NCBI GenBank assembly: GCA_003213595.1
Contig: QCMR01000001.1
Span: 326,302-390,301 of the forward strand
Direction of reading: 5' to 3'
DNA length: 64,000 nucleotides
Source of the DNA: SAR86 cluster bacterium AG-422-E19
GTDB taxonomy: Bacteria; Pseudomonadota; Gammaproteobacteria; Magnimaribacterales; AG-339-G14
The notes under the pieces were generated by a model. It was not told the DNA's origin. It was given only the letters and a program-made list of their open reading frames with translations, and searched no databases. Position 1 is the stretch's first letter; every line of letters begins with the position of its first letter. Position numbers and translations under genes: made by a program. This document shows, piece after piece, positions 32,149 to 43,503 of this stretch.

Positions 32149-32225
<77 letters not shown>

Positions 32226-32241
32226 AATTCAATTTAATATT

Positions 32242-32270
32242 TTGACAGTCATACTGTCATATCCTATATT
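32242..32270 (+). promoter_or_regulatory. sulfatase promoter with palindromic operator over the -35
   Basis: Consensus TTGACA (32242-32247), a 17-base spacer and TATATT (32265-32270). Across the -35 and spacer lies TGACAGT-CAT-ACTGTCA (32243-32259), two perfect 7-base arms, the normal geometry for a dimeric repressor. Closely similar sequence with identical spacing stands before the amidohydrolase at 41566-41594. No regulator gene is nearby. Confidence 0.62.
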
Positions 32271-32294: not shown

Positions 32295-33941
32295 ATGCTC
32301 AAAAGGACGCTTTACTCACTCATTGCAATTGTTTTCATAGGGGTTGTTGCATGGGAATACAAAGTAAACATCTTAATTTGGTCCTTACCAAAGATGATGA
32401 ATATTCTTAACCCCATTCAAGAAAACATACCAACATCTTGGTCTATAGGGCCAGAAGAAGCAACGAAGGACGATCGACCTAACATAATTTTAATTCTTGC
32501 TGATGATATGGGCTACAACGATATTTCGCTCCACAATGGTGGAGCTGCTGATGGTTCTTTGCAAACACCACATATTGATGAATTGGCTGCAAGTGGTGTT
32601 TGGTTTTCAAGAGGTTATGCTGCTAATGCGACTTGTGCTCCATCTCGAGCATCAATCATGACAGGTAAATATGCTACAAGATTTGGCTATGAATTTACTC
32701 CAGTGCCCGATCCGGCAAGATTTATTCTCACTTGGCTGGTTGAAGAAGATGATGCTCAATTGAGAGGTAGAATTGATCGAGAAGTCGCAAATAATTTACC
32801 TTCATATTTCGATATGGGCATGCCAACTGAACAAATTACTATAGCTGAAGTTCTTAAGGATGCAGGGTATTACACCGCTCACATTGGTAAATGGCATTTA
32901 GGAATTACCAATGGCATGGATCCTCAAAGTCAGGGCTTTGTTGACTCTTTGTCGCTAGCAGGGAGTTCTTATCTTTCTGAGAATGACCCTGAAGTTGTGA
33001 ATGCCAAATTCGATACCAGCATTGATAAGATGGTTTGGTCTTCCTCTCAGTATGCAGCTAGATTTAATGGCAGCAAACCTTTTGCTCCTGATAAATACGT
33101 CACAGATTACTATACCGATGAAGCATTGAAAGTGATTGAAAATAACCAGAACCGTCCCTTCTTTTTATACTTAAGTCATTGGGCAATTCATAATCCATTA
33201 CAAGCTTTAAGATCTGATGTTGAGCAAATGCAACATATGTCCGGCCATAACCTTCAAGTATATTCAGGCATGATTCGAGCACTTGATCGTAGTGTTGGCA
33301 AAATTATAGAAAAACTTAAAGAACTAGAAATCTATGGGAAAACTTTGATCATATTTACCAGCGATAATGGAGGTGCTAATTACATCGAATTGGAAGATAT
33401 CAATAAACCTTATCGAGGCTGGAAAATATCGTTTTTTGATGGCGGTATAAGAGTGCCTTTTATTTTTAGTTGGCCTGATCGCATTGAAGCTGGAGAAAAA
33501 TTCGATGATGCTATTCACCACTTCGATATTTTTTCTACAATTGCTGCAGCGGCAAATGCAGAAATAAAGAATAAAAACGTTATTGACGGAGTAAATTTAC
33601 TACCTTTCATTAATAGAGAGACTTTTAACAAACCTCATGAAACTCTTTTTTGGCGCTCTGGTAATCACCAATCGGTTTTACATAAAAACTGGAAATATTT
33701 AATTAGCATTAAAGAAAATGCTCGATGGTTGTTTGATACTTCTTCGGATCCTTTTGAAAAAAATAATGTTATTGATAAATATCCAAAACAGGCCCAGGTT
33801 ATAGAAAGCTTATTAGTTGAATTCAACGATAAGCAAAGTGATCCTCTTTTCCCATCAGCTTTTGAAGCTCCAATAATGATTGATAAATATGACGGGCAAG
33901 AATATGAAGCAGGGGACGAATATATTTATTGGTCTAACTGA
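32295..33941 (+). CDS. membrane-anchored type I sulfatase
   Basis: Sulfate ester hydrolase of the alkaline-phosphatase superfamily (sulfatase S1 type), 548 residues. An N-terminal hydrophobic segment (5-21) without lipobox should anchor or export it. Metal site residues DDMGYND at 70-76, and C114-A-P-S-R118, whose cysteine is converted to formylglycine by an anaerobic-independent FGE in most bacteria; then HIGKWHLG near 196-203 and TSDNGG. No maturase gene is in the window. Known relatives act on sulfated polysaccharides or sulfated sterols and aryls; the substrate here cannot be named. The gene has its own promoter and a good ribosome-binding sequence (AGGGAG). Confidence 0.9.
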   Translation: MLKRTLYSLIAIVFIGVVAWEYKVNILIWSLPKMMNILNPIQENIPTSWSIGPEEATKDDRPNIILILADDMGYNDISLHNGGAADGSLQTPHIDELAASGVWFSRGYAANATCAPSRASIMTGKYATRFGYEFTPVPDPARFILTWLVEEDDAQLRGRIDREVANNLPSYFDMGMPTEQITIAEVLKDAGYYTAHIGKWHLGITNGMDPQSQGFVDSLSLAGSSYLSENDPEVVNAKFDTSIDKMVWSSSQYAARFNGSKPFAPDKYVTDYYTDEALKVIENNQNRPFFLYLSHWAIHNPLQALRSDVEQMQHMSGHNLQVYSGMIRALDRSVGKIIEKLKELEIYGKTLIIFTSDNGGANYIELEDINKPYRGWKISFFDGGIRVPFIFSWPDRIEAGEKFDDAIHHFDIFSTIAAAANAEIKNKNVIDGVNLLPFINRETFNKPHETLFWRSGNHQSVLHKNWKYLISIKENARWLFDTSSDPFEKNNVIDKYPKQAQVIESLLVEFNDKQSDPLFPSAFEAPIMIDKYDGQEYEAGDEYIYWSN

Positions 33942-41520: not shown

Positions 41521-41574
41521 ATTAATACTAAACCTAATATTAATACTTAACCTAATATTTATACTTTGACAGTG
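41521..41574. repeat. 18-base direct repeats before the amidohydrolase promoter
   Basis: ATTAATACTAAACCTAAT (41521-41538) is followed directly by ATTAATACTTAACCTAAT (41539-41556), one base different, and then by a degenerate third copy beginning ATTTATACTT that runs into the -35 hexamer. Tandem copies abutting a promoter could be activator or repressor sites. The repeats may also have arisen by slippage in AT-rich DNA. Confidence 0.6.
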
Positions 41575-41594
41575 TATCTCTCATATTTTATATT
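41566..41594 (+). promoter_or_regulatory. amidohydrolase promoter similar to the sulfatase promoter
   Basis: TTGACA (41566-41571), 17-base spacer, TATATT (41589-41594). A half-degenerate inverted repeat TGACAGT-GTA-TCTCTCA (41567-41583) has the same position as the perfect one at 32243-32259. The expected start of transcription, about 41601, coincides with the ATG at 41602, so the message may be leaderless. Confidence 0.58.
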
Positions 41595-41601
41595 TGATTT
41601 T

Positions 41602-43503
41602 ATGAGAGCATTACACGATTTAGTTATTAGAAACGGAAAAATTGTAGATGGCAGCGGAAAAAAACCTTTTCATGGTGATGTTGCTATAGACAATGGAAAG
41701 ATATCTGCAGTAGGAATCGTTGAGAATCCAGGTAAAAAGGAAATTGACGCAAAAGGTAACATTGTCACTCCTGGATGGGTAGACATTCATACTCACTATG
41801 ATGGTCAAGTTTGTTGGGATCCATATTTAACCCCATCAAGCTGGCACGGCGTTACAACAGTCGTGATGGGAAATTGTGGAGTCGGTTTTGCTCCAGTCAA
41901 ACCTGGCGATGAAGAATTTCTAATTCAATTGATGGAAGGAGTTGAAGACATACCTGGTACGGCGCTTCATGAAGGGGTTGATTGGAATTGGGAAACTTTT
42001 CCAGAGTTTTTAGATGCGATAGAAAAAAAGGATTTTGTCATGGATCTTGGTTTTATGATTGGACATGGTCCTTTGAGAAGTTACGTCATGGGATATGAAA
42101 GATGTCAAAGTCAAGTTGATGCCTCAAAAGAAGAAATTTCCAAAATGTCGGATATTGTTACTGAGGCTATTGAATCTGGTGCCTTAGGTTTTAGTACTTC
42201 AAGAACAATTTTACATCGAGATGTTCACGGAGTTTATGTTCCTGGAACAGAAGCAAGCTCAGAAGAAATGAAGTCTTTAGCTTTTGCGATTGATAAAGCA
42301 GGCGAGGGAACTTTGGAAATTGTTTCTGATTGGCTTGATAAAGAAATTGAAATGTCTTGGATGAGAGAATACGTTGAAAAAAGCGATTGTGGACTTACAG
42401 TGCTTCAGACAAGTGGTGATGCAGTAAAAACAATTTTATTTTGTGAAGAACAATTTTTGAAAGGTAAAAACGTTAGACCTCAATTTCCAGGTAGGAATGT
42501 CGGAATGATGTTTGGCTTGGAAAGTTCCTTACATCCTTTTATTGGTCATCCTTCTTATCGTGAAATAGCAGACCTTCCTTTATCTGAAAGGGTTCAAATT
42601 ATGAAAGATCCAGCTTTTAAGGAAAAACTTCTTAATGAAAAACCAAATTTTGCTTCTGAGATAGAAAAATCAATGAATGAGCAAGGCAATACAAAATCTC
42701 AAGAAGAGATCAAAGAAGCAGCTAATCTAGGTCTTAAACTTATTTCCAACTACGATACTCAATTTATTCTAGGAGATCCTCCTAATTATGAGCCTGGAAA
42801 AGAGGACAGTATTGCAGCTTTAGCAAAATCTAAAGGTATAGCTGAGCTTGAAGTCATTTATGATGAATTTCTTAAAAACGAGGGTACTAATTTAGTTTAT
42901 GCCTGTTTTACTCCATACGATAATCACAAATTAGATTTTGTAGAACGAGCTTATAGTCTTAAGTCTTCTGTAGCTGGCGGAAGCGATGGTGGAGCTCATT
43001 GTGGATTGATATGCGATGCTAGTATGCCCACAACTAACTTATCACACTGGGCAAGAGACAGAGAGGCTGGTAAAAAAATTCCAATTGAATTAATAGTTAG
43101 AAAACAAACTAAGGATACTGCCGAAACTTATGGTTTGTTTGACCGAGGGGAAATTAAAACAGGAATGTTAGCCGATTTGAATATCATTGATTTCGAGAAG
43201 CTTAATGTTACTCATCCTAAAATGGTTTACGACCTGCCTTTGGGAGGAAGAAGATTAATTCAAACCTCTTCAGGTTACTTGGCTACAGTTAAAAGTGGTG
43301 AAGTAGTTTATGAAGCTGGTGAAGCGACAGGAATTCTTCCGGGAAAATTAATCCGAGGAAAGCAAACTTGTGAAGTAAAAATGGAAAAAGAAAGGGTACC
43401 TTTCATTGACCGAACTCTTCGTTTAATGTCTGTTAAAGCTTTTAAGTTACTCTGGAATTTTAGAAAAAGCTCAGTTAAAACTACAGTTGTTTCCGACGAC
43501 TAA
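41602..43503 (+). CDS. N-acyl-D-amino-acid deacylase-like amidohydrolase
   Basis: 633-residue amidohydrolase family 3 / D-aminoacylase-like protein. LVIRNGKIVDGSGKKPFHGDVAI is the N-terminal beta-sandwich start, H-T-H-Y-D-G (63-68) the metal-binding motif, followed by MGNCGVGFAP, GHGPLR and the SDGGAHCG segment with the late metal aspartate and histidine. It likely hydrolyses an amide or cyclic ureide bond in the cytosol. I take ATG 41602 as start because an earlier in-frame TTG (41566) lies within the -35 hexamer. The tail shares CTAA (43500-43503) with the MFS gene; carrier and hydrolase may act on the same compound. Confidence 0.87.
   Translation: MRALHDLVIRNGKIVDGSGKKPFHGDVAIDNGKISAVGIVENPGKKEIDAKGNIVTPGWVDIHTHYDGQVCWDPYLTPSSWHGVTTVVMGNCGVGFAPVKPGDEEFLIQLMEGVEDIPGTALHEGVDWNWETFPEFLDAIEKKDFVMDLGFMIGHGPLRSYVMGYERCQSQVDASKEEISKMSDIVTEAIESGALGFSTSRTILHRDVHGVYVPGTEASSEEMKSLAFAIDKAGEGTLEIVSDWLDKEIEMSWMREYVEKSDCGLTVLQTSGDAVKTILFCEEQFLKGKNVRPQFPGRNVGMMFGLESSLHPFIGHPSYREIADLPLSERVQIMKDPAFKEKLLNEKPNFASEIEKSMNEQGNTKSQEEIKEAANLGLKLISNYDTQFILGDPPNYEPGKEDSIAALAKSKGIAELEVIYDEFLKNEGTNLVYACFTPYDNHKLDFVERAYSLKSSVAGGSDGGAHCGLICDASMPTTNLSHWARDREAGKKIPIELIVRKQTKDTAETYGLFDRGEIKTGMLADLNIIDFEKLNVTHPKMVYDLPLGGRRLIQTSSGYLATVKSGEVVYEAGEATGILPGKLIRGKQTCEVKMEKERVPFIDRTLRLMSVKAFKLLWNFRKSSVKTTVVSDD

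Follow-up and report, generated by a model that had tools for sequence, protein, structure and literature searches.

A probable palindromic operator built into promoters of a SAR86 genus, with a TetR-family protein as candidate repressor

The window analyzed here, a stretch of 64,000 nucleotides from a SAR86 genome (G000), contains a sulfatase gene and an amidohydrolase gene with closely similar promoters (Table 1). Both genes are preceded by TTGACA and TATATT hexamers separated by 17 bases, and the two copies (32242-32270 and 41566-41594) are the only exact plus-strand occurrences of TTGACA-N17-TATATT in the window. The first-pass annotation had described this pair, counting 23 identities over 30 bases, and had reported a perfect palindrome in the sulfatase copy and one full arm plus five of the seven bases of the other arm in the amidohydrolase copy. 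Its coordinates and letters are correct, our recount of the identities agrees, and a pattern scan recovers both operator copies as described. At the sulfatase gene, the left arm of the palindrome falls within the -35 hexamer, while the right arm occupies most of the spacer.

Table 1. Features of the two window promoters and further operator sites in G000 (C, contig; positions without a contig are those of the window)
Feature	Position	Strand	Remark
tRNA-Ile (GAT)	32149..32225	+	neighbor immediately 5' of the sulfatase promoter, outside the operator
Sulfatase -35 hexamer, TTGACA	32242..32247	+	read from the sequence
Putative operator, TGACAGT-CAT-ACTGTCA	32243..32259	.	perfect 7-N3-7 palindrome, 0 mismatches; exact motif in relatives
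Sulfatase -10 hexamer, TATATT	32265..32270	+	17-base spacer; spacing also kept in relatives
Sulfatase (PF00884)	32295..33941	+	Pfam E 1.8e-48
Amidohydrolase -35 hexamer, TTGACA	41566..41571	+	read from the sequence
Degraded operator, TGACAGT-GTA-TCTCTCA	41567..41583	.	2 mismatches, both in the right arm; pattern scan
Amidohydrolase -10 hexamer, TATATT	41589..41594	+	7 bases before ATG
Amidohydrolase (PF07969, Amidohydro_3)	41602..43503	+	E 1.3e-38; start revised from 41566 to 41602
Site at probable DUF3604 lipoprotein gene	C1:103208		0 mismatches
Site at SDR gene	C3:10803		1 mismatch
Site at MBL/OYE divergent pair	C1:263550		2 mismatches
Site at flavin monooxygenase gene, Baeyer-Villiger-like	C1:161391		only at 3 mismatches, counted with the -10 element

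For the amidohydrolase, the start motif MRALHDLVI, beginning at the revised ATG, is present in all 15 orthologues examined, and this start appears more likely than the TTG at 41566. As so few bases then separate the -10 hexamer from the ATG, the amidohydrolase mRNA is probably leaderless.

Taken alone, the window is weak evidence for an operator. With up to 3 mismatches allowed, the operator pattern is matched 3 times against 2.35 expected, and perfect 7-N3-7 inverted repeats of any sequence number 20, compared to 5 to 21 in eight Markov simulations. As the repeat count is at the level of the simulations, the palindrome was rejected as stand-alone evidence; the case therefore rests on cross-genome comparison, and it is from other genomes that support beyond chance comes. 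The ACTGTCA half-site noted upstream of ilvB by the first-pass annotation does exist (27687), but it carries little meaning: the 7-base half-site occurs seven times in the window, counting both orientations, where about eight would be expected at uniform base composition, and this one was accordingly dropped as regulon evidence.

The comparison covered 16 genomes of the genus (g1, including G000) and 24 genomes of three sister genera, with the reversed motif in the same genomes as the control. G000 itself is a member of the marine SAR86 clade, in the same genus as G026 and G028; its assembly of 1.11 Mb is 91% complete and consists of 18 contigs. The exact motif TGACAGT-N3-ACTGTCA is found at two places in G000, against none for the control. 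Across the genus it is present in 14 of 16 genomes, the exceptions being G029 and G035, and it is found in none of the 24 sister-genus genomes, with the reversed control at 0 of 40. When the palindrome is combined with TATATT at the correct spacing and up to 3 mismatches are allowed, 94 strand-wise matches are obtained from all 16 genomes of the genus and none from the control in these 16; the genomes are related, so such cross-genome counts are non-independent. Seventy-three of the matches were tabulated in seven promoter classes, assigned from the letters of the site itself where the locus was not fetched. The others comprise three matches inside genes (G028:C2:136162, G032:C6:8967, and G035:C4:86719), one site containing an N (G025:C44:5371), and 17 more rows, of which 16 are opposite-strand readings of tabulated sites and one, G032:C2:216793, is a separate TetR-side operator. 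Among 62 loci compared with the regulon proteins, 57 contain one. The proposal of the first-pass annotation that a genome scan would place the motif upstream of genes is thus largely borne out, as is its conservation within the genus.

The right arm of the operator is not required by sigma-70. Over the 73 tabulated sites, T13 is conserved in 71, G14 in 69, and C16 and A17 in 73 each, partly by construction, because the search pattern itself includes that arm. Support that does not depend on the pattern comes from sulfatase orthologues identified by protein search, 13 of 15 of which carry the operator. A chance resemblance between two strong promoters, with a palindrome that no regulator reads, would fit the palindrome count in the window, but 94 matches against 0 in the control, the 13 sulfatase orthologues, and the 16 exact variant sites of a sister genus, all at homologous genes (described below), leave this explanation with almost no probability. 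Two 2-mismatch matches in G000 that lie inside genes which, from their translations, we take to be rpoC-like and signal-peptide-peptidase-like were put down to chance. The exact promoter-operator sequence had no match among viral contigs.

The first-pass annotation had assigned the sulfatase and the amidohydrolase to one regulator. Both do carry the shared operator, but the set of candidate targets is larger than two genes. Sites in G000 also lie at four other loci, scattered over its contigs (Table 1). The top NCBIfam match of the flavin monooxygenase is a Baeyer-Villiger enzyme of pentalenolactone synthesis (731 bits, compared to a cut-off of 1100). In the relatives, sites are also present at a haloalkane-dehalogenase-like hydrolase gene divergent from a TetR gene (nine genomes), and 2 of 16 genomes have an exact site in the stretch separating acyl-CoA dehydrogenase and PQQ-type dehydrogenase genes. 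The left arm serves at the same time as the -35 hexamer in the promoters of the sulfatase, amidohydrolase, monooxygenase, MBL, and hydrolase genes. The ATG of DUF3604 falls on the would-be -10 hexamer; therefore, its promoter must be further upstream, and the site is probably near the transcription start, either at it or after it.

Comparison of orthologous promoters, as the first-pass annotation had suggested, gives a divided answer, with the sulfatase site widely kept and the amidohydrolase site patchy and degraded in G000 itself. For the sulfatase, a site with at most 2 mismatches is absent only from G035 and G033 among the 15 genomes of the genus having the gene. It is placed at -52/-51 relative to the ATG in 12 genomes and is also present in G036. 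The sulfatase promoter of G033 has TGAC-N9-GTCA ahead of TATATT, which may be an operator that has decayed or changed. For the amidohydrolase, only 6 of 15 genomes having the gene carry the site. In eight of the nine genomes without it, the tRNA gene is followed by a different AT-rich stretch, and in the ninth, G027, the sequence is unrelated. In G025, G033, and G036, the amidohydrolase operator has no mismatches and occupies the same place (-35 relative to the ATG); the site in G000 looks like a weakened version of it. Since the site is this patchy, the promoter sequences indicate that within the genus the amidohydrolase has either joined the regulon or dropped out of it.

Separately, we note that the sulfatase at this locus exists as two alleles in the genus, one 75-76% and the other 91-99% identical to that of G000. 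The alleles do not track the identities of the nearby amidohydrolase; in G034, for example, the amidohydrolase is 99% and the sulfatase 76% identical. This mismatch in sequence identity suggests that sulfatase alleles have been exchanged by recombination. G028 has a second sulfatase copy at C3:98406.

A candidate for the regulator is encoded in the relatives. This protein, TetR-B, is a TetR_N protein of 191 residues found in 9 of the 16 genomes of the genus. It matches PF00440, the N-terminal TetR helix-turn-helix (HTH) domain, with 29.5 bits, above the cut-off of 24, and its predicted structure (mean pLDDT 83.6, pTM 0.75) is an all-helical TetR fold with an HTH and a C-terminal helical domain. 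The best PDB matches listed for the model are mostly described as TetR-family regulators. In all nine genomes, the intergenic region between TetR-B and the divergent hydrolase has at least one site with at most 2 mismatches, and in seven of them there are two. Directly observed in the sequences are the motif, where it is placed, how far it is conserved and, in the relatives, its association with the TetR-B gene. The first-pass annotation had pointed to a TetR-type regulator autoregulated by the same motif, and TetR-B, whose own promoter region carries the motif, answers to this description in the relatives; that no such regulator is encoded in the window also holds. The broader idea that a single regulator works through a palindromic operator common to these genes has good support from sequence, with the reservation that the amidohydrolase site is patchy and the ilvB half-site irrelevant. 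A search of phage records with the TetR-B protein gave no match.

TetR-B was not found in 7 of the 16 assemblies (G000, G025, G027, G029, G033, G034, and G037), yet all 16 genomes keep sites, which would be expected if a different genus-wide regulator, either a non-TetR protein or, for example, the TetR family represented in G000 at C2:55750, read the operator and TetR-B were merely another target. In five of the seven, however, the stretch where TetR-B is expected is unassembled. Contig C8 of G000 stops 112 bases past tmk, within holB, and the neighbors of TetR-B are missing too; in G026, tmk is ~7.6 kb from TetR-B. We infer that the TetR-B gene of G000 is located in an assembly gap. In G029, one contig breaks off within the very hydrolase gene that adjoins the expected place, and the other shortly after holB. 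For G025, G034, and G037, in whose assemblies tmk, NMO, and the closely neighboring hydrolase were not found, the absence of TetR-B likewise reads as assembly gaps. G027 and G033 are the sole genomes lacking TetR-B in which its neighbors are assembled. Their hydrolase promoters have no site, and they keep the fewest site classes (1 and 2, compared to 3-7 in the other 14 genomes), yet each retains one perfect site, at the sulfatase in G027 and at the amidohydrolase in G033, and this speaks against TetR-B as the sole reader of the operator. A quick tree, in which the branch of G000 carries no meaning because its tmk frame was misread, was used only to place these two genomes; both sit on deep branches, each as far from the other (78%) as from G026, which implies one or two losses of TetR-B, or the older state. 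The C2:55750 gene has the advantage of being present in G000, but no site with at most 3 mismatches lies near it, and it was judged an improbable cognate regulator; more generally, for the two remaining TetR families of the genus, no such site was found in the subset of their loci that was read. As a motif variant in sister genus g3 also tracks the promoter of a TetR-B homologue and two of the same target types, we regard a different regulator as unlikely, on a survey that covered TetR-family genes.

In G028, the reading frame of TetR-B is broken. The surrounding stretch of this MAG contig (C1:411000-427000, BPAJ01000001.1) has many broken frames, suggesting base-level assembly errors, and the TetR-B break is therefore probably an assembly error as well. 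As a further observation, the C2:55750 gene is the only TetR gene of G000 above the Pfam cut-off and is divergent from a gene whose product contains a long tract of Ser-Glu-rich repeats.

Six of the nine g3 genomes encode a TetR-B homologue with 36-40% identity, and the recognition-helix region G[ST]RTIFRHF is common to both proteins. In the two g3 loci compared, the homologue has the same neighbors that TetR-B has in g1, namely GST, NMO, and a second dehalogenase-like gene. Its promoter has TGACA-N7-TGTCA in four of the six genomes, with one mismatch in the other two. The variant TGACAT-N5-ATGTCA occurs at 16 exact places in 8 of 9 g3 genomes, against 0 for the control. Of these 16, six precede DUF3604, six the hydrolase, and the remaining four TetR-B; no sulfatase or amidohydrolase gene was seen at these 16 sites. 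Because the variant sites fall at homologous genes and at the promoter of the regulator, the comparison supports a single regulon spanning the two genera.

Together, the position of the site over the -35 hexamer and spacer, the divergent and autoregulated TetR gene, and the TetR fold point to a ligand-released repressor, and we consider it likely that TetR-B is an autoregulated repressor acting on an operator built into the -35 region of both window promoters. A TetR-B dimer would bind the 17-bp operator TGACAGT-N3-ACTGTCA, whose left arm makes up most of the -35 TTGACA and whose right arm falls within the 17 bases between that hexamer and TATATT, and would thereby keep sigma-70 RNA polymerase off the promoter. 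TetR-B would be released by a small molecule that is probably one of the enzymes' substrates or intermediates. The protein would use one or two operator copies to repress its own gene and the divergent haloalkane-dehalogenase-like gene as well. In G000, the regulon would include the sulfatase, DUF3604, SDR, the Baeyer-Villiger-type flavin monooxygenase, the MBL/OYE pair, and, with its weakened site, the amidohydrolase. Binding by TetR-B, repression rather than activation, and ligand release are what we infer from this arrangement. Some TetR-family proteins do activate, and TetR-B could in principle be an activator or dual regulator at these promoters. However, the promoters are near-perfect copies of TTGACA-17-TATATT with the site over the -35 hexamer and spacer, so an activator should not be needed; the DUF3604 site lies at or after the probable transcription start; and repressors typically show such a divergent, autoregulated arrangement. 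An activating role is accordingly quite improbable, more so than a different regulator.

Among known systems, TetR-B resembles the local repressors of the TetR/AcrR family in its TetR_N domain, its all-helical fold, and a short palindrome in a divergent promoter. It differs from them in that its regulon is scattered over the chromosome and consists of hydrolases and oxidoreductases, with no efflux pump. The operators of such local repressors (MtrR and AcrR type) are unlike TGACAGT-N3-ACTGTCA, and TetR-B scores well below the cut-offs of two of its nearest NCBIfam models, those for MtrR (E 1.2e-6; 28.5, compared to a cut-off of 280) and AcrR (E 5.1e-5; 22.9, compared to 271). KstR of cholesterol catabolism and the Bacillus FadR of fatty-acid catabolism, each of which places a catabolic regulon under one TetR repressor, as proposed here for TetR-B, are also fold or sequence-profile matches. 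The fold matches share 14-21% sequence identity with TetR-B, and the target genes differ, as do the operators, which are unlike the motif described here. The FadR (Bacillus type) model gives 22.2 against a cut-off of 200, and KstR is a fold match with no KstR model among the NCBIfam matches.

SAR86 are among the most abundant surface-ocean bacteria. Their first isolate was reported only in 2024, in PMC11582366, which describes steroid and aromatic degradation capacity and whose main text never uses a word beginning with "regulat." PMC4810484 mentions SAR86 genes for steroid catabolism as well as the actinobacterial KstR2 regulon, and names no SAR86 regulator in the passages seen. Among the SAR86 papers listed for TetR regulons, operators, and haloalkane dehalogenase, no title or opening abstract describes a TetR regulon or operator; nor is this operator described in the titles and opening abstracts of the matches listed for TetR with haloalkane dehalogenase or of those listed for TGACAGT as a TetR operator. 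One TetR paper containing the letters TGACAGT (PMC6534649) was discarded, as in the passages seen they occur in a primer only, and the literature on DUF3604 yielded only an unrelated paper.

The enzyme content of the regulon suggests a theme of natural-product or membrane-lipid degradation. A bolder reading, which we offer tentatively and consider possible but doubtful, is that TetR-B is the master switch of one unrecognized SAR86 catabolic pathway whose scattered genes are marked by the operator, with the inner operator bases having shifted and promoters having joined or left. If so, the sulfatase, the Baeyer-Villiger-type monooxygenase, OYE, SDR, the haloalkane-dehalogenase-like hydrolases, MBL, and DUF3604 would process, one after another, a single class of natural products, such as sulfated or halogenated terpenoid or steroid-like compounds, and the inner bases would have gone from GT/AC in one genus to T/A in the other with the recognition helix nearly unchanged. 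A defined operator with a candidate regulator offers a way to learn which of the scattered genes work together and to what compound they respond, and shows a way in which a small genome maintains a multi-locus regulon.

Two further TetR-like sequences were encountered. Contig NZOY01000092.1, filed as Flavobacteriaceae, encodes a TetR-B with 77% identity, and on this sequence the contig is probably SAR86 from a mis-binned or mislabeled MAG. In G031, a GC-rich TetR-like stretch at C1:104923, unlike the AT-rich host, is possibly contamination of the assembly.
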